This document shows, piece after piece, positions 19,413 through 29,133 of a stretch of 48,235 bases of DNA; position 1 is the first letter of the stretch; every line of letters starts with the position of its first letter. Source of the stretch: an uncultured bacterium (GTDB taxonomy: Bacteria; Bacillota_I; Bacilli_A; RFN20; CAG-826). The stretch is taken from NCBI GenBank assembly GCA_949299165.1, contig CASFZJ010000009.1, positions 1 through 48,235 of the forward strand, written 5' to 3'. The position numbers were made by a program, and so were the translations under genes. Under the pieces are notes generated by a model, which had not been told where the DNA came from, made no database searches, and saw only the letters and a list, made by a program, of their open reading frames with translations.

Positions 19413-19889
19413 CTATGTGTTAGGGAATTTAACGCGAAATTCCTCTTGTGATATTAAATTTTTCGAGTGGTTCTTCACCTCTTTAAAAATTTTTTCATCT
19501 TTATCTAAAACAAGATAAATTGGGTTTCCGCTTTTATTATAAAAAAGCATTGTTTTATGTTTTTCTGTATATTCTTCATCGATAAAAATTACATCAGAAA
19601 AATTATATTTATCTTCTTTTATCCATTTATGATGAACTATTCCATCTTTTAACAAAACATAGTAATTTTGGGTTGTAAAAACAAACAAGGAAAGTGAGGA
19701 AATTACAAACCAAATTATAAGAGAAATAACATCTTGAATTATACAATTTTGAATTTGACTTTCATCAACATATGCCCAGCCAAAACGAGAAGAAAAAATA
19801 AGGTAAATTAAAATCAATAAAACTAGCGAATAAATCGAAAAAAGTTTCAAAATCTTACTTTTTTTCGGAAAAATGCGTTCAAATTTCAT
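19413..19889 (-). CDS. two-helix membrane protein with a possible PH-like domain
   Basis: It has 158 residues. Two hydrophobic helices (about 14-33 and 50-71) are followed by about 85 residues of beta-strand-rich sequence (YYVLLKDGIVHHKWIKEDKYNFSDV...), which recalls bacterial PH (bPH/YcxB-like) domains; this is inference. No ribosome site precedes the ATG, and the leader is T-rich. It is divergent from jetA with 80 bp between them, and nothing else ties it to that operon. Confidence 0.55.
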   Translation of the reverse strand: MKFERIFPKKSKILKLFSIYSLVLLILIYLIFSSRFGWAYVDESQIQNCIIQDVISLIIWFVISSLSLFVFTTQNYYVLLKDGIVHHKWIKEDKYNFSDVIFIDEEYTEKHKTMLFYNKSGNPIYLVLDKDEKIFKEVKNHSKNLISQEEFRVKFPNT

Positions 19890-19969: not shown

Positions 19970-21388
19970 ATGAATTTATTTGATATTATTCCACAAAACT
20001 ATTTTGGTTTGTTTGGGGGGAAAAATAGGTATATTTATATAGAAAGTCTCCTCATACTTTTTGGTATGTTAGAAAAGGATGAAACGATCATTTCCAAAAG
20101 CGATTTCATCAAAACCTTAAAGGATAAAGCTCAAGATTTAGATAAATTTACCTATGAAGATGAGGATTTTGATGCAACAGATGATGATGCTCTTTTAATG
20201 AACACAATTACAAGTAAAGCAGGTTTTATTTGTCGCAGACTTGAGGAAACTGGTTGGATTGACATTGCAATGAATCCAGATAATTTTGAAGAAACAATCG
20301 TTTTACCTCAATATACAATTATTTTACTTAAGGCATTCCAAGATATTATTTCTGATGAAGAATCGCCTTATTTATCTCTTGTTCATTCAACTTATAGTGA
20401 ACTTAAACTTGAAGATGAAGAGCACGATGAATTAATGTATGCAACTTTACTTCGTGCCTTTGATAACACTAAAAAGTTAAAAGTTGAACTTTTAACTCTC
20501 ACTAACTCAATCAGAATTTTCCAATCGAAATTATCTAAATTATTCGATACTAATCGTGTTTTACATGATTATTTTGATGTTTATAAACGTAAAATTAGTG
20601 ATAGATATTATCACCCATTAAAGACATTTGATAGTGTTGCTCGTTTTAAAAGACCAATTATTCGTATTTTAGATGGATGGCTAAACAACAAAGAAATTCG
20701 TGAAAAATTAGTTTTCCAAGCTTCATTATCGGCTGCAGGAAATGACAAAAAAGAAATCGAAAAAGACGTTATCGAAAAAATTAACTATATTACCGATACT
20801 TACGAAAAATTAAATGTTTTAATTAATGGAATTGATAAAGAAAACAATGCTTATACTAAAAGTAGCACTAATAAAATTCTTTATCTTAATAACAACGACC
20901 GTACAATCAAAGGTCATCTTGAAAATATCCTTAAAACATATGCAAAAAATATTAATGACACTAGAACTTTGTCAAAAATTTTATCAAAAATGCAAGATTC
21001 AACCTATTTTTATGAACAAGGCTATATCGATCCATCTAGTGTCACTCTACCAATTTTAAGAAGATTCAAATATGAAGGAGTGCCAATGGAACTTGTCACT
21101 TTTGATGAAGCAACAGGTTTTATGATGGATAACTTCCTTGAAGAGACAAAAGCAATTTTCACTGATGAAAAAGTTTATGGATTTATGCATCAAGCTTTTG
21201 GTGATAAAGAAAGAATGCACATTAGTGAAATCCCTTTAGTAAATTTTGATGCATTTATTTGCTTGATTCTCGCAGTTATTAAGAAAGATGATGAAAATTG
21301 TTTCTATTACGTTGAAGAAATTGATAAAGGAAAAGTCCATACAAATGGATATATTGTTCCAAATTTCGAATTTATAAAGAAGGAGTGA
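19970..21388 (+). CDS. jetA: Wadjet JetA / MukF-like kleisin subunit
   Basis: The 472-residue protein resembles the JetA family (DUF5716 type): the opening NLFDIIPQNYFGLFGGKNRYIYIESLL is typical, followed by winged-helix-like and long helical regions. JetA is the kleisin that bridges the SMC heads, equivalent to MukF/MksF. Family membership is also supported by the immediate jetB (DUF4194) and jetC (SMC ATPase) neighbours, which give the invariant A-B-C order. It starts at an ATG with no ribosome site after a TGATATAAT box, and ends with TGA. Known Wadjet operons continue with jetD; none follows here. Confidence 0.85.
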   Translation: MNLFDIIPQNYFGLFGGKNRYIYIESLLILFGMLEKDETIISKSDFIKTLKDKAQDLDKFTYEDEDFDATDDDALLMNTITSKAGFICRRLEETGWIDIAMNPDNFEETIVLPQYTIILLKAFQDIISDEESPYLSLVHSTYSELKLEDEEHDELMYATLLRAFDNTKKLKVELLTLTNSIRIFQSKLSKLFDTNRVLHDYFDVYKRKISDRYYHPLKTFDSVARFKRPIIRILDGWLNNKEIREKLVFQASLSAAGNDKKEIEKDVIEKINYITDTYEKLNVLINGIDKENNAYTKSSTNKILYLNNNDRTIKGHLENILKTYAKNINDTRTLSKILSKMQDSTYFYEQGYIDPSSVTLPILRRFKYEGVPMELVTFDEATGFMMDNFLEETKAIFTDEKVYGFMHQAFGDKERMHISEIPLVNFDAFICLILAVIKKDDENCFYYVEEIDKGKVHTNGYIVPNFEFIKKE

Positions 21389-21392
21389 AGCT

Positions 21393-22040
21393 ATGTTTAA
21401 TGAAGATTTTGCAAAAATGCCACCAAGTGAACAAAACGAATTCGCTTCAGTTGTTAATACATTACTTTTAAAAGGTTTTGTTGTTCGTGATATTTTTGAT
21501 TCAAAAGAAAAAATCATGAGAATTAATGAAACTTATCGTTACATTGAGCGTCACTTCGACTTAATTCAAGATTATCTCAAATTTAGTGGATGGAATCTTG
21601 AAAAAGATGTTATTTTAGGTGTTGTTGCTTTAACAAATTTCTATACAGAAAATAGAATTAGAATCGATAGAGAAACTTCCCTCATTCTTTTTGCTTTACG
21701 TTTAATCTATGAGAACGAAAAAAATGAGTCAAATTCAACTAACCAAGCAATTTATATTACAACTCCTGGTCTTATCAAAACGATGGTCGATGATGGAATT
21801 GTTATGCCAGGAAAAAGACTTTATGGTAGAGGAATTGCAAAATCTTTAAGATTCTTAAACAATCACAATATTATTTCAAAAGTTAGCGGAAGTTATGATG
21901 AAGGAAATGTCTCTTTTTATATTCTTCCAAGTATTGTTTATGCTCTAGATAATGACAAAATCGTTGCAATGAGCAATGCACTTGATGAACTTAATAAGAA
22001 AAATGATGAAAGGGGCTTATTAAATGAAACTATTAACTAG
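21393..22040 (+). CDS. jetB: Wadjet JetB / MukE-like subunit (DUF4194)
   Basis: At 215 residues it resembles DUF4194 proteins, the MukE-like KITE subunit that binds the JetA kleisin. The pattern ...RYIERHFDLIQDYLKFSGWNLEKD..., then LILFALRLIYENE, and a C-terminal winged helix ending in FYILPSIVYAL fits. It begins 4 bp after jetA with GAAGGAGTGAAG as ribosome site spanning the jetA stop. It overlaps jetC by 17 bases, so the three proteins are probably made together. Confidence 0.85.
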   Translation: MFNEDFAKMPPSEQNEFASVVNTLLLKGFVVRDIFDSKEKIMRINETYRYIERHFDLIQDYLKFSGWNLEKDVILGVVALTNFYTENRIRIDRETSLILFALRLIYENEKNESNSTNQAIYITTPGLIKTMVDDGIVMPGKRLYGRGIAKSLRFLNNHNIISKVSGSYDEGNVSFYILPSIVYALDNDKIVAMSNALDELNKKNDERGLLNETIN

Positions 22041-25000
22041 AGTTAAAATTATAAATTGGCACTATTTCTGGGATGAATTAATCGATATTAAGCCTATCGT
22101 CTTTTTAACAGGTGTTAATGGTAGTGGTAAATCTACCTTAATCGACGCAATGGAAGTTGTTCTTCTTGGAGATACAAGTGGAAGATACTTCAATAAAGCA
22201 GCCATGGAAAAAAGTGCACGTACTTTAAAAGGTTATTTAAGGGGTGAAATTGGCGATAATATTGAAGGCGGCTTCCAATATTTAAGAAATGGAAGATTTA
22301 CATCTTATATTGCACTCGAATTTTTAGATGATTTAAACAACGTTCCTTTTGTCATGGGAATTGTTTTTGATTCTTTCGAAGATGGAAGTGAAGAACATCA
22401 CTTTTTCTATCTTGAAGCACCTATTCCAATCAATAATTTTGTTAAAGATAGAGTCCCAATGGATTATAAAGCACTTCTTGCTTTCTTTAATGAAAATTAT
22501 CCAGAAAAATTCAAATTCTTCGATAGTAATCGACAATATCAAGATTTCTTAAAGAGAAAATTTGGTGGTTTAAAAGATAAATATTTCTCACTTTTAAAGA
22601 AAGCAACATCTTTTACTCCAATTACTGATATCACGACTTTTATCACTCAATATGTTTGTGATCCACAAGCAAATATTGAACTTGATGCTCTTCAAGATAA
22701 CATTCTTCAATATAAACGTCTTGAAGTTGAAGCGACAAATATTGAAAAAAGAGTCAAAAGACTTGAAGAAATTCATCAAACATATGATGTTTATAAACGC
22801 CAAAAAGAAAATTATGTCATTGCTCAATATATTATTGAAAAATGTCAACTCGAACAAAGCTATACAAAACTTAGAAATTTAAATAATTTAATCGAGAAAA
22901 ATCAAAGAAGAATCTCTGAAATTGATGAAGAACTTAAAGACTTTGCTGAAAATTTAAAAGAACTTGAAGCAAGAAAAACTAAACTCATCAGTGATAGAGC
23001 AAGTAATGATACAATTCGTATCGCTCAAAATTTAAAAGATGAAAAGAGAGATTGTGAAGATAAAATTGGTGCTATTAATCAAAATGTTTCAGTTGTTAGA
23101 AATTCGATTTCAACATATGTTGAAAATTTTGACCGTTGTGCCAGAGCTTTAATTAAAGATTTAGACAATGTTGATGTTGCTACACTTGGTGAAGATAGAG
23201 CTGAAGAAATTGGCGAACTTAAAGAGTCAAGTAAAGCTGTAATTAGTGCTTGTGGCTCTTTTAGAGATACATATTTAAATGATTTAACAAAATTAACTAA
23301 AAATGATTTAAGTGATTTTAGAGATACACTTTTAATTTTTAAGAACCATGTTTCTAATCTTGCTGTTTCATTAGCAAGAACAATTCAAGCTTTAGAAAAA
23401 GGTGTTAGAGAAATTAGAGCACAAGAACAAGACATTAAAAAAGGCACAAAATCTTATGATTCGCGTCTTGTTTATATCAAAAATGCACTTGAAGATAGAC
23501 TTGAAAGTCAATTTGGTAAGCACATTGAAGTTTCAATTTATGCCGATCTTGTCGATATTAATGATTTAAGATGGTCAAACGCAATTGAAGGCTTACTTTA
23601 TGCACAAAAATTCAATCTTTTCGTTGCGCCAAAATATTATGATGATGCTTATCGAATTTTAAGAAATTTACTCAATGAATATTCATATTATGGCACAGCT
23701 TTAGTTGACGAAGAAAAAATCATTGACCGCGAACCAATTTGTGAAGAAGGTTCACTTGCTGAAGAAATTATTACCGATCACGAAGGCGCCAGAGCTTATA
23801 CAAATTTCCTTTTAGGTAGAGTTCATAAATCAAAAGATCCTCGTGAAGCTAGAGAAAGCGGAAATGGTATTACCATGGAATGCGATTTATATCGTAATTT
23901 TGCTATGAGTAGACTTAATCCAAGAACATATGCTTCTAGCTTTATTGGTAGAAACTTAGATTCACGTTTTATTAACGAAAAAGCCCGTCAATTAGAGGCT
24001 AATTTAGAAAATTTAAAGATTTATCGCGATATTAAAGCATTAATTGATGAAGCAAATCGCCTTGAACTTTTCACAACTAGTGAAATGGATAACATTTTCG
24101 TTTTACTTAAAAGAATTAGCGATCTTCCAGGACTTCGCAAAACTCTTGAATATATTGAAGATGAACTTAAAAACAATGATTCACCTCTTGCTCAATCTCT
24201 TGATTCAAGAATTGATGATATCGATGCGGATATCCGTTCAATTAACGAATCAAAAGATAAAGTTAACCTTGAAAAAGGCAACCTTATTAAAGATATTGAA
24301 ACAATTAAATCTGAAAGAATCATTGCAGAACAAAATAGCATCAGAGAAAAAGAAAATTCTATTAATTCTCACTATGATCCATTCCTTGTTAGCGATCAAG
24401 CTTTACCAATTTATGAAAAAGAAATTGCGGATGGAAAATCCACTCTTGAAATTTTCCAAGAATTTAATGTTGAATTTTCACGTTTACAATACCTTGTAAA
24501 TAACATCAATAACCAAGTTATTCGTTTAAGGAGAGATTATTGTCAAGATTATCATTTAAGTTATGACGTAGAAAGCGAAAATAACGATGTCTTTGAAAAC
24601 GAACTTAAAGAATTTAGAGATGTTAAACTTCCTGAATATAAAGAAAAAATCAAAGATTCATATGATAAAGCTACCAAACAATTTAAAGATGATTTCATTT
24701 TTAAATTAAGAGGTGCGATTGAAGACGTTGAAGATCAAATTGAAAATTTAAATAACGCTTTAAAACAATCTTCATTCGGTAGAGATTTATATCGTTTCAC
24801 TGTTAGACCATCTTCAGTTTATAGAAGATATTATGACATGCTCAAAGATGACCTTGTCATAAATGGCGGAAAAGACGACACTGAATTTGTTGAAAAATAT
24901 AGAGATGTCATGGAAGATTTATTTAGACAAATCGTTGATGTCGGCGATAACTCTAAAAACGACCTCCTTATGACTAACATTGCTAAATTTACTGATTACA

Positions 25001-25389
25001 GAAGTTATCTCGATTTCGATTTAATAGTCTATAATAAAGATAGTGGTAAAGAAGAACGACTCTCGGTAATGCTCAAGAAGAAGAGTGGTGGTGAAACCCA
25101 AACCCCATTCTATATCTCTGTCCTTGCATCATTTGCCCAGCTATATCATGTTAATGATGAAGGCGAAATGGGAAATACCTTGCGTCTTATTATATTTGAT
25201 GAAGCATTCTCCAAAATGGATAAGAACAGAATGACTGAAGCAATCAAACTTTTACGTAAGTTCTCACTCCAAGTTATTCTTAGTGCTCCATACGATAAGA
25301 TTCCAGATATTTCACCATTAGTTGATGAGACCTTGATTACATTGCACGACAAAAATAAGAGTTGCGTTCGTCTTTTTGAAAAAGAATAA
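22024..25389 (+). CDS. jetC: Wadjet JetC / MukB-like SMC ATPase
   Basis: The 1121-residue protein has SMC architecture. Walker A TGVNGSGKST is at 29-38. Long heptad-rich coiled coils lie at about 225-480 and 690-920, separated by a hinge-like region. The ABC signature SGGETQTPFY starts at residue 1021 and Walker B LIIFDEAFSKMD at 1055-1066 with the catalytic Glu1060. The SGGExQTPFY form of the signature is that of MukB/JetC, not canonical Smc. All catalytic elements are intact, so it should be an active DNA-translocating ATPase. It starts inside jetB and ends 19 bp before glgC, leaving no room for jetD. Confidence 0.92.
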   Translation: MKLLTRVKIINWHYFWDELIDIKPIVFLTGVNGSGKSTLIDAMEVVLLGDTSGRYFNKAAMEKSARTLKGYLRGEIGDNIEGGFQYLRNGRFTSYIALEFLDDLNNVPFVMGIVFDSFEDGSEEHHFFYLEAPIPINNFVKDRVPMDYKALLAFFNENYPEKFKFFDSNRQYQDFLKRKFGGLKDKYFSLLKKATSFTPITDITTFITQYVCDPQANIELDALQDNILQYKRLEVEATNIEKRVKRLEEIHQTYDVYKRQKENYVIAQYIIEKCQLEQSYTKLRNLNNLIEKNQRRISEIDEELKDFAENLKELEARKTKLISDRASNDTIRIAQNLKDEKRDCEDKIGAINQNVSVVRNSISTYVENFDRCARALIKDLDNVDVATLGEDRAEEIGELKESSKAVISACGSFRDTYLNDLTKLTKNDLSDFRDTLLIFKNHVSNLAVSLARTIQALEKGVREIRAQEQDIKKGTKSYDSRLVYIKNALEDRLESQFGKHIEVSIYADLVDINDLRWSNAIEGLLYAQKFNLFVAPKYYDDAYRILRNLLNEYSYYGTALVDEEKIIDREPICEEGSLAEEIITDHEGARAYTNFLLGRVHKSKDPREARESGNGITMECDLYRNFAMSRLNPRTYASSFIGRNLDSRFINEKARQLEANLENLKIYRDIKALIDEANRLELFTTSEMDNIFVLLKRISDLPGLRKTLEYIEDELKNNDSPLAQSLDSRIDDIDADIRSINESKDKVNLEKGNLIKDIETIKSERIIAEQNSIREKENSINSHYDPFLVSDQALPIYEKEIADGKSTLEIFQEFNVEFSRLQYLVNNINNQVIRLRRDYCQDYHLSYDVESENNDVFENELKEFRDVKLPEYKEKIKDSYDKATKQFKDDFIFKLRGAIEDVEDQIENLNNALKQSSFGRDLYRFTVRPSSVYRRYYDMLKDDLVINGGKDDTEFVEKYRDVMEDLFRQIVDVGDNSKNDLLMTNIAKFTDYRSYLDFDLIVYNKDSGKEERLSVMLKKKSGGETQTPFYISVLASFAQLYHVNDEGEMGNTLRLIIFDEAFSKMDKNRMTEAIKLLRKFSLQVILSAPYDKIPDISPLVDETLITLHDKNKSCVRLFEKE

Positions 25390-25408: not shown

Positions 25409-26524
25409 ATGGCGCAAAAAGTAGTTGCGATGATACTTGCGGGAGGGAAAGGCACCCGTTTAAAGGCTTTAACCAAAAAAATTGCTAAACCAGCAGTTCA
25501 TTTTGGTGGCAAATATCGTATCATCGATTTTTCACTTTCCAATGTTGCAAATAGCGATATTACAGTTTGTGGCGTTTTAACTCAATACGAATCAGCTGTT
25601 TTATCAAATTATGTTGGAAACGGTTCAACCTGGGGGTTTGATGGAGTTAATGGCAAATGTCAATCACTTGCTCCTCACCAAACTGAAGAAGGTGCAAATT
25701 GGTATAATGGCACAGCTGATGCAATTTACCAAAATCTTGATTTCTTAGATGATGAAGATCCAGAATATGTCTTAATTTTAAGTGGAGATCATATCTATAA
25801 AACAACTTATAATGACATGATTGATCTTCATATTAAATCTGGTGCCGTTTGTACAATTTCGGTTATTGAAGTTCCTTGGGAAGAAGCATCAAGATTTGGT
25901 ATTTTAGAGGTTGATAGCAACGATCAAATCACAAAATTCGTTGAAAAACCTAAAAAACCACAATCAAATCTTGCCAGTATGGGAATTTATGTCTTCTCTT
26001 ATAAAGAATTAAGAAAAGCTTTAGTAGAAGATGCAAAAGATGAAACAAGTTCACATGATTTCGGAAGCAATATCATCCCAAAACTCTTAAAAGATAATAA
26101 AAAAGTTATGGCTTATCGTTTCTCAGGTTATTGGAGAGACGTTGGAACACTTGATTCACTTCATGCAGCAAACATGGAACTCCTCCCATCAATGGGTAAA
26201 GAAGATATCATTCATTTCTCAGAATTCCCAACTGTTTTTAGTGAAGATACGCACTCAATGCCTCAATATATTGGCAAAAATGCCACAATTGATGACTCTT
26301 TAATTAATCAAGGGGCAATTATTCTTGGTTCTGTTGCTGAATCAGTTATTTCAAATGAAGTTTTTGTAGGCGAACAAGCAAGTGTTGTCAAATCAGTCGT
26401 TATGCCAGGCGCAAAAATTGGTAAAGGCGCCTATGTCTATAACGCAATTGTCGGACCAAACGTTGTCGTTAAAGATGGCGAAGTTATTAATAAGGACGGA
26501 AAAGACGTCTTGTTAGTTGATTAA
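25409..26524 (+). CDS. glgC: glucose-1-phosphate adenylyltransferase
   Basis: It makes ADP-glucose from glucose-1-phosphate and ATP, the first committed step of glycogen synthesis. The 371 residues contain the nucleotide-binding AGGKGTRL (11-18), FGGKYRIIDFSLSN, the catalytic SGDHIYKT, FVEKP, YWRDVGT, and a C-terminal left-handed beta helix. AAAGGAGG precedes the ATG. It starts 19 bp after jetC with no terminator, so read-through from the SMC operon is possible. Confidence 0.96.
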   Translation: MAQKVVAMILAGGKGTRLKALTKKIAKPAVHFGGKYRIIDFSLSNVANSDITVCGVLTQYESAVLSNYVGNGSTWGFDGVNGKCQSLAPHQTEEGANWYNGTADAIYQNLDFLDDEDPEYVLILSGDHIYKTTYNDMIDLHIKSGAVCTISVIEVPWEEASRFGILEVDSNDQITKFVEKPKKPQSNLASMGIYVFSYKELRKALVEDAKDETSSHDFGSNIIPKLLKDNKKVMAYRFSGYWRDVGTLDSLHAANMELLPSMGKEDIIHFSEFPTVFSEDTHSMPQYIGKNATIDDSLINQGAIILGSVAESVISNEVFVGEQASVVKSVVMPGAKIGKGAYVYNAIVGPNVVVKDGEVINKDGKDVLLVD

Positions 26525-26535
26525 GGAGACCTTTT

Positions 26536-27651
26536 ATGAATAATGTTTTAGCTCTTATCGATTTATATGATAATTCAGATTTAGGTCTTTTAACTAGAGA
26601 TAGACCTCTTGCTAGCACAACATTTTTAGGAAGGTACGCATTTATCGATTTCGCTTTATCAAATCTTTCAAATAGTGGAATTGATAACATTTGCGTTCTT
26701 GCTAAAAATCATTCAAATAGCATTTATAAACACATTGGAAATACTAATACATATTTAGCAAATCCAAAAACAGGTTATTTATCCATTCTTATCAATGAAG
26801 AAGGTATCATTAATCCAGTTTTTAATACTGATGTTAATAATATTAAAGAAAATGACTTCGTTTTATACGATGACAAAGTAAAATATGTCATCATTACAAA
26901 TAGTGCCTATATTATGAAAATTGACTACAAAAAAATAGTCGAAGATCATATTAAAAGCGGAAAACAAGTTTCACTTGTTTATAAAAATGTTGAAGATTCA
27001 ACTGAATTTTCTAAATGTTCAAAACTTGTAGTTGATAACTTAAATTGTGTTCAAAAAATTTATAAAGATAGAAAAACATCTCGTGCCAATATCTTACTTG
27101 ACACAATGGTTATCGACAAAAATCTATTACTTGATTTACTTTCTAAATCAAGTCAAATTTCAGCGATGATTAATGTTGAAAGTATGGTCGGTTATCTTGT
27201 TAACTTTGTTACAAGAGTTAACGCAATTGAATTTAAAGGATTCGTTCGTTTCTTTGATTCTCTTGAACATTACTTCAAATATTCTTTAGAATTTTTAAAT
27301 AATATTGAGGTTTTGCGCGAATTTTTCCAAGATCCAGAGTGGACATATTATACGACAACTCACAATTCTCACCCGGTTTTATATGGACCAAATGCAAAAG
27401 TTACTAATTCACTCGTTGCAAATGGAACAAATATTGAAGGCACGGTTAAAAATTCTATTATTTCTCGTGACGTCACGGTAGAAGAAGGAGCGATCGTTGA
27501 AAACTCAATTATTTTTACCCACACAGTTGTAAAAAGAGGAGTTCACTTAAAGAATGTAATTGCTGATAAACGTACTGTTTTTGAAAATAAAAAAGACGTT
27601 TATGGCACCGAAGAGCATCCTTTATATTTTCCAAGAGGAGTTATAGTTTAA
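26536..27651 (+). CDS. glgD: GlgD subunit of glucose-1-phosphate adenylyltransferase
   Basis: GlgD is a GlgC paralogue found in Bacillota that forms a mixed enzyme with GlgC and raises its activity. The 371-residue protein keeps the fold (RPLASTTFLGRYAFIDFALSN) but the GGxGxRL nucleotide loop of GlgC is replaced by a non-glycine segment, as expected for the regulatory subunit. The GDH catalytic motif is also replaced (ITNSAYIM). It lies 11 bp after glgC with AAGGAG upstream. Confidence 0.94.
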   Translation: MNNVLALIDLYDNSDLGLLTRDRPLASTTFLGRYAFIDFALSNLSNSGIDNICVLAKNHSNSIYKHIGNTNTYLANPKTGYLSILINEEGIINPVFNTDVNNIKENDFVLYDDKVKYVIITNSAYIMKIDYKKIVEDHIKSGKQVSLVYKNVEDSTEFSKCSKLVVDNLNCVQKIYKDRKTSRANILLDTMVIDKNLLLDLLSKSSQISAMINVESMVGYLVNFVTRVNAIEFKGFVRFFDSLEHYFKYSLEFLNNIEVLREFFQDPEWTYYTTTHNSHPVLYGPNAKVTNSLVANGTNIEGTVKNSIISRDVTVEEGAIVENSIIFTHTVVKRGVHLKNVIADKRTVFENKKDVYGTEEHPLYFPRGVIV

Positions 27652-27654
27652 TTT

Positions 27655-29106
27655 ATGAATGTTTTAATGGCAAGTAGTGAAGCTTTACCATTTTCTAAAA
27701 CCGGTGGTTTAGCTGATGTAGTTTATGCACTATCAAAATATATAGCAAAAAATTGTAAAGGCGATACGATGAGTGTCGTATCTCCTTTTTATGGTTCGAT
27801 TAATAAAGATAAATACAAATTTAAACTTCTTTATAGCTTTGATGTAAAGATGAATTGGAGAAAAATTCATACTGAAATCATGCATATAACTTATGAAGGA
27901 ATTGATTATTATTTAGTTAAAAATGATAATTATTTTGCTAGAAATGGTGGCCTTTATGGCTATTATGATGATGGAGAAAGATATGCTTATTTTTCTTTAG
28001 CAGTCATTGAACTCATTAAACTTTTGCCATATAAAATTGATGTTGTCCATTGCCATGATTGGCAAAGTGGCATGATACCTTGTCTTATTAAAGAAAGATA
28101 TCATAATGATACAATTGTTGGAAAAGTTAAATCGATTTTAACAATTCATAATCCTTTATTTAAAGGTTATTTTGGTGTTAATTCCTTATATGATTTTTAT
28201 GGATTAAGCGACAACTTATTCTATTCAGGAAAAATTAGACTTGATGGACAAGTTTCTACCTTAAAAGCTGGAATTTGGTATGCAGATAAAATCACAACCG
28301 TTTCACCAACTCACGCTTATGAACTTAAAACTCCAGATGGATCAAAAGGTTTATGGTATGACCTTATTTTAAGACAAAATGATTTTGTTGGAATCATCAA
28401 TGGAATGGATTATAAAGAATTCAATCCATTAACTGATAAAATGATTTATTTTAATTATGGTAAAAAGAATTTTTCTGAAGGAAAAAGAAAAAATAAAGAG
28501 GCTTTCTGCAAGGAATTTGAACTAGAACAAGGGAAACCATTATTTAGTGTCGTTTCTAGACTTTCAGATCAAAAAGGTCTTGAACTTATCAATGCAATGG
28601 CTGATTTTGTTGTTTCAAATGGTGCAAATTTTGCTCTTGTTGGAAGCGGAGAAAAATATGCCGAAGACTATTACAATGCTCTTCACATGAAATATCTCCA
28701 TAATGTTAGAGTTTATATAGGCTACAACAATGAGATGGCACATAAATGTTATGCAGCTAGTGATTTCTTCATTATGCCAAGTGCTTTTGAACCTTGTGGA
28801 CTTGGTCAAATGATTGCTCAAAGATATGGAACTCTTCCAATTGTTAGAAGAACGGGTGGCTTAAAAGATAGCGTAAAACCATATAATTATGGAATTAACA
28901 ATTTCAAAGACGCTGATGGATTTGGATTTGACAATTTCTCAGTAAATGATGCTTTAAAAGCAAGCGCTCAAGCTTTGATGGTTTATAATTCTAGACCAAA
29001 AGAATTTGAAAAAATGAGATTAAATGCTTTAAAAGCAGATCATAGTTGGACAAAACCATCTCAAGAATACTTAAAACTTTATCAAGAATTAAGTGAAAGA
29101 AAATAA
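27655..29106 (+). CDS. glgA: glycogen synthase (ADP-glucose type, GT5)
   Basis: It transfers glucose from ADP-glucose to growing alpha-1,4-glucan. The 483 residues show KTGGLADV near the N-terminus, the CHDWQSGMIP acceptor region, SRLSDQKGLELI, and the C-terminal EPCGLGQMIAQRYGTLPIVRRTGGL with the GT5 catalytic glutamate. It starts 3 bp after glgD, with AGAGGAG upstream. The branching enzyme GlgB and phosphorylase GlgP are not in the window. Confidence 0.96.
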   Translation: MNVLMASSEALPFSKTGGLADVVYALSKYIAKNCKGDTMSVVSPFYGSINKDKYKFKLLYSFDVKMNWRKIHTEIMHITYEGIDYYLVKNDNYFARNGGLYGYYDDGERYAYFSLAVIELIKLLPYKIDVVHCHDWQSGMIPCLIKERYHNDTIVGKVKSILTIHNPLFKGYFGVNSLYDFYGLSDNLFYSGKIRLDGQVSTLKAGIWYADKITTVSPTHAYELKTPDGSKGLWYDLILRQNDFVGIINGMDYKEFNPLTDKMIYFNYGKKNFSEGKRKNKEAFCKEFELEQGKPLFSVVSRLSDQKGLELINAMADFVVSNGANFALVGSGEKYAEDYYNALHMKYLHNVRVYIGYNNEMAHKCYAASDFFIMPSAFEPCGLGQMIAQRYGTLPIVRRTGGLKDSVKPYNYGINNFKDADGFGFDNFSVNDALKASAQALMVYNSRPKEFEKMRLNALKADHSWTKPSQEYLKLYQELSERK

Positions 29107-29109
29107 TAT

Positions 29110-29133
29110 GAGCCGGTAAATTCCGGCTCTTTT
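29110..29133 (+). terminator. intrinsic terminator of the glg genes
   Basis: A perfect 7-bp GC-rich stem (GAGCCGG / CCGGCTC) with a 6-base loop is followed by TTTT. It lies 3 bases after the glgA stop. Confidence 0.85.

Follow-up and report, generated by a model that had tools for sequence, protein, structure and literature searches.

A nuclease-free, Wadjet-derived JetABC complex as the probable chromosome-organizing motor of a Bacillota order without detected Smc-ScpAB

What does a Wadjet gene set do when its nuclease gene is missing? The question is raised by a jetABC operon that is followed by glycogen genes and not by jetD, in an uncultured bacterium of the order RFN20 (Bacillota_I; Bacilli_A). 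The window analyzed here is the whole 48,235-nucleotide stretch from contig CASFZJ010000009.1; its genome, G000, comprises 1.43 Mb in 39 contigs and is 98.4% complete. The Wadjet group is known to include complexes without a nuclease, MukBEF and a number of others among them (PMC7617805); MukBEF and the MksBEF of P. aeruginosa are described as lacking a nuclease and acting on chromosomes (PMC7617805, PMC10586767). A defense origin has been proposed for MukBEF and remains open (PMC10586767).

The three genes are intact, with a 4-bp gap between jetA and jetB, a 17-bp overlap of jetB and jetC, and 19 bp separating jetC from glgC (Table 1). The first-pass annotation of this DNA had described abutting or overlapping genes for a JetA-like kleisin, a DUF4194 JetB and a 1121-residue SMC protein, with glgC just downstream and a divergent gene upstream; coordinates, Pfam, PADLOC and the ORF calls all agree. 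The best PADLOC models for the three window proteins are JetA1, JetB1 and JetC1. Structure searches match the predicted JetB model (pLDDT 82) to JetB (8as8/8dk1) and to MukE; the top Foldseek matches of the predicted JetA model, which has low global confidence and a domain arrangement predicted with low confidence, are Wadjet JetA and MukF kleisins; by profile, the solved chains nearest to JetC are those of JetC itself (9qxt/8as8). The Walker A, SGGETQTPFY signature and Walker B (FDEAFSKMD) motifs, earlier read as intact, are indeed so, their residues being invariant or nearly invariant across 25 orthologs of the order, and JetC orthologs carrying the invariant ATPase motifs reach down to 33% identity. 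Upstream, the divergent membrane protein matched no family above the cut-off in a Pfam search. Downstream, no terminator-like site is predicted on the + strand of the jetC-glgC interval and one is predicted right after glgA, so that jetABC-glgCDA may form a single predicted transcript. Within this run, glgD (window 26536-27651) is a paralog of glgC that scores only weakly as a nucleotidyltransferase (PF00483 at 5.8e-10 as against 3.1e-69 for glgC itself), the usual regulatory-subunit arrangement.

Table 1. Features of the jetABC locus (window coordinates) and of the second-Wadjet remnant elsewhere in the genome.
Feature	Position	Strand	Evidence or remarks
jetA, kleisin subunit, 472 aa	19970..21388	+	Pfam PF18982 JetA 2.3e-89; PADLOC JetA1 1.2e-119
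jetB, KITE subunit (DUF4194), 215 aa	21393..22040	+	PF13835 6.6e-13; PADLOC JetB1 9e-65
jetC, SMC ATPase, 1121 aa	22024..25389	+	PADLOC JetC1 E=0; SbcC_Walker_B 7.6e-25 (Pfam)
glgC-glgD-glgA, downstream neighbors, outside the complex	25409..29106	+	same strand, conserved
terminator-like hairpin after glgA (predicted)	29110..29129	+	7 pairs, 6 G-C, then T run
divergent small membrane protein gene, 158 aa, upstream	19413..19889	-	neighbor in much of family f1
second-Wadjet wreck	L002 (G000 contig C32) 2980-5170		jetA split between two frames, no jetB or jetC left, shortened jetD

Whether such an operon is resident or acquired can be judged from its distribution, examined here in 115 relatives, mostly metagenome bins. 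The named relatives in the genome scan are uncultured Bacilli, Mollicutes and Erysipelotrichales bins together with Candidatus Onthovivens merdipullorum. JetC orthologs occur in 44 of the 46 genomes of the same order outside family f1; retention of nuclease-free JetABC is near-universal in families f2-f8, and in genus g1 the one genome without JetC is 52%-complete, a pattern with which the JetA search concurs. Across 43 fetched loci, the gene order jetABC-(X)-glgCDA(-leuS) repeats in families f1, f3 and f5, so the linkage to glgC that the first-pass annotation had proposed looking for in relatives does recur; the gene X found between jetC and glgC in some of them is DUF3137-like or without family, and no recognized nuclease. 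No jetD is present at the locus in the window, nor in the sequence retrieved on either side of the 43 orthologous core loci.

The glgC-linked copy also looks to have been passed on vertically. JetC distances follow those of leuS (Spearman 0.84) and glgA (0.85) about as closely as leuS follows glgA (0.89); the lower correlation with glgC (0.42) was set aside because it is spoiled by the glgC/glgD paralogs. Values of dN/dS for the core subunits, 0.01-0.12, are as low as for glgC and below the 0.10-0.20 of a second Wadjet in the same genome pair; these ratios indicate that jetA, jetB and jetC are each under strong purifying selection. The locus lies among housekeeping genes. This is in line with the earlier remark that a place beside the glycogen genes is typical of core DNA.

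Of the canonical smc-scpA-scpB set, which the first-pass annotation wanted sought in the genome, the Smc hinge (PF06470) and ScpA (PF02616) were looked for, and neither has a match in G000. Among the 115 relatives, the hinge profile matches in nine, each time by coordinates inside a jetC gene, while control genomes and 143 other genomes of the class match strongly; ScpA, searched within the organism's own order, is above the cut-off in none of the 115. JetC is, moreover, the only SbcC/JetC-type Walker-B protein detected in G000. With the hinge found only within JetC and ScpA absent, the searches show no SMC-type complex in this genome other than JetABC.

Taken with the core distribution of the operon, the absence of Smc-ScpAB argues for a role on the chromosome. 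The nuclease-free, Wadjet-derived complex is probably the lineage's resident chromosome-organizing motor, a MukBEF-like condensin that folds the chromosome of an order in which Smc-ScpAB is not detected. JetC dimers, together with the kleisin JetA and the KITE subunit JetB, would load onto chromosomal DNA and extrude loops with ATP, much as MukBEF does and without any cutting by JetD, functionally replacing Smc-ScpAB. Such loading is probably not ParB-dependent everywhere, since G036 and three genomes of genus g36 have the core complex and no HTH_ParB match. The first-pass annotation had left two options side by side, a chromosome-organizing condensin drawn from the defense family and a sensor of plasmids that relies on an unlinked effector. 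The former is the better supported, by the order-wide, vertically inherited core, the missing Smc hinge and ScpA, and the jetD-bearing outgroups.

These outgroups are the nearest homologs outside the order (Caldicoprobacter, Thermoclostridium, Fervidicola, Lucifera, Alicyclobacillus and others), in nearly all of which jetD comes immediately after jetC; two outside relatives inspected closely, L150 and L176, have no jetD there. A tree of JetC, MukB and MksB had been suggested earlier; the JetC tree groups the order's core copies with JetD-bearing type-I systems of clostridia and Alicyclobacillus. Monophyly of the core is not rejected (AU p=0.109), which fits jetD having been lost once, in the order's ancestor, on trees that are quick, use a simple model and have a root that does not decide between loss and gain. 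Alignment columns kept in the JetD-bearing clostridial relatives and lost in the core number 5 in JetA, 3 in JetB and 22 in JetC (reverse: 0, 0 and 2), and 8 of the 22 lie in the hinge region (p=0.013). They hint at a lost JetD interface, but they also track phylogeny and the uneven numbers of sequences compared, and are given no weight as evidence here. Nor could the N-terminal IFDR motif of JetB, reported as a JetD contact (PMC10586767), serve as a test, for it is unrecognizable in members of this branch with and without JetD alike.

The kinship with type-I Wadjet, seen in both the PADLOC models and the tree, is what lends substance to the idea that JetABC is still directed against plasmids, sensing circular DNA by loop extrusion and then either silencing it by compaction, in the manner of Smc5/6, or handing it to an unlinked and unrecognized nuclease. 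Restriction by compaction alone has been proposed for Smc5/6 (PMC10586767). We nevertheless think this unlikely. The operon has housekeeping genes for neighbors, the Smc hinge and ScpA are missing, and the core, vertical distribution is unlike that of the second Wadjets, which are patchy. JetD is found in 17 of the 115 relatives, 14 times adjoining a second JetABC of about 27% identity, and these JetD-bearing second copies are spread across the tree. The remaining 98 have no JetD match in a profile search, and the single copy in G000 is a wreck, which weakens the case for a plasmid sensor working through an effector at another locus.

Two further observations concern these accessory copies. 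Genomes of genus g25 in family f1 that lack a core copy have a divergent, accessory-type JetABC, also without jetD (loci L101, L224 and L225); the JetC proteins of L224 and L225 are 54% alike, and that of L101 matches either at only ~33%, hinting at further separate losses of the nuclease. At L100 (G099 C54, 6091 onward) there is a 546-aa JetD-like protein with no JetABC recognized in its vicinity; it may belong to a different type of Wadjet or be an orphan.

Slightly less likely again is a reading in which JetABC is a leftover Wadjet without its nuclease, retained for a modest or accessory role in DNA repair or in supercoil or nucleoid maintenance, while the lineage lives without a true condensin. 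Lineages without Smc and JetABC do exist in the same family and class. In family f1 outside genus g1, 27 of 43 genomes lack both JetC and the Smc hinge, two of them listed as 100% complete, and so do about 80 of the 296 genomes in the class sample. The complex is thus not essential in every relative, Smc can go missing without JetABC, and genomes as small as these may do without a condensin. Near-complete genomes with neither complex fall in families f12, f19 and f23 and in the f1 genera g13, g18, g19, g23 and g33, apparently condensin-free lineages, several of which keep ParB. Against an accessory role stand the strong purifying selection that acts on each subunit, the invariance of the ATPase motifs in even the most divergent orthologs, and the near-universal presence of the complex in f2-f8, as well as its presence in many genomes of f16, f27 and f28.

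The statement that jetD is lacking holds for the locus and not for the genome as a whole, where one JetD_C match lies on contig C32. There, two out-of-frame jetA fragments run straight into a jetD that keeps only its 3' part. At the DNA level these remains match a complete second jetABCD (L097) in G013, a genome of a sister species, with 90-95% identity; the glgC-linked JetC of G013 is 98% identical to that of the window. The alignments abut, with ~4.3 kb gone (the end of jetA, jetB, jetC and the start of jetD) in addition to the frameshifts, and the best-fitting PADLOC JetA model for the C32 pieces differs from that of the window JetA. The match to G013 suggests a recent loss, in the G000 strain, of an accessory Wadjet distinct from the glgC-linked locus; a misassembly of C32 is possible, and even then its jetD would belong to another locus. 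That jetD vanished just in this strain or assembly, with the C32 match as the displaced partner of the glgC-linked genes, can be dismissed almost entirely, being contradicted by the comparison with G013 and by the lack of an adjacent jetD in 43 of 43 other core loci. The C32 gene is not a conserved partner, and jetD is missing at the locus throughout the order.

Other parts of the class show the same combination. Nuclease-free JetABC without an Smc hinge also occurs in families f16, f26-f28 and f10; in f14 and f20 Smc is present and JetABCD is mostly complete. By genome, nuclease-free JetC is found in 3 of 143 with Smc versus about 70 of 153 without, a strong association per genome, which the genome-level Fisher value for Smc/JetD (6e-21) nevertheless overstates, as it is clustered by family and phylogeny. 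The rule has exceptions: some Smc-less genomes of f1 and f21 (G052, G062, G231) whose sole JetABC carries jetD, and two of f14 with Smc but nuclease-free JetABC, L191 (G157) and L192 (G120). Placing all nuclease-free copies in one clade is rejected (p=5.5e-8), as is uniting the core with f26-f28 (p=7e-6) or f16 with f26-f28 (p=8e-5), while f10 with f26-f28 is not rejected (p=0.15). These rejections indicate at least three separate nuclease-free JetABC lineages, a provisional count given quick trees, groups named after the first tree was seen, and a JetC that is transferable. On this basis it is nearly as likely as not that Wadjets repeatedly became nuclease-free condensins replacing a lost Smc-ScpAB, on three or more occasions in this single class of Bacillota. 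If true, these would be parallel origins of MukBEF-like chromosome organizers, caught at different ages.

How, then, should the complex be classified? Among replacements of a bacterial condensin, MukBEF is the textbook example. The order's complex resembles it in being a nuclease-free, Wadjet-group SMC in genomes without Smc-ScpAB and in having a KITE subunit folded like MukE, but the window JetC is not MukB (PF04310 at 20.7 bits, below the cut-off of 23), and the complex belongs to another Wadjet branch, in Bacillota. With SMC, kleisin and KITE genes, intact ATPase motifs and no nuclease, it has the composition of a nuclease-free condensin of MukBEF/MksBEF type. The MksBEF of P. aeruginosa differs in acting beside Smc, which is here undetected along with ScpAB. 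With type I Wadjet (JetABCD / MksBEFG / EptABCD) the complex shares JetA, JetB (DUF4194), JetC and their order, clostridial systems being nearest, but the operon JetD (DUF3322/DUF2220 Toprim) is missing order-wide, the copy is core and vertically inherited, and no other SMC complex is detected. Without JetD, the defining part of a Wadjet, the locus is not to be filed as a Wadjet defense system, even if a Wadjet is clearly what it was made from. Smc-ScpAB, finally, would supply the function expected in Bacilli, and in this order the Smc hinge turns up only inside JetC and ScpA not at all.

In the literature covered here we found the idea of nuclease-free Wadjet-group complexes, and neither this order nor a JetABC replacing Smc in Bacillota is described there. 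The principle is already known from MukBEF and MksBEF; what appears to be new is the instance, a Bacillota order lacking Smc-ScpAB in which JetABC is the one SMC complex detected, and its apparent recurrence in the class. Defense-finding tools will label this core gene set as Wadjet, and Smc-ScpAB may be absent from more Bacillota than is usually assumed. The order combines a nuclease-free copy with complete and decaying accessory Wadjets, and its outside relatives are JetD-bearing; it is probably a younger, testable case of a defense machine turning into a chromosome organizer.
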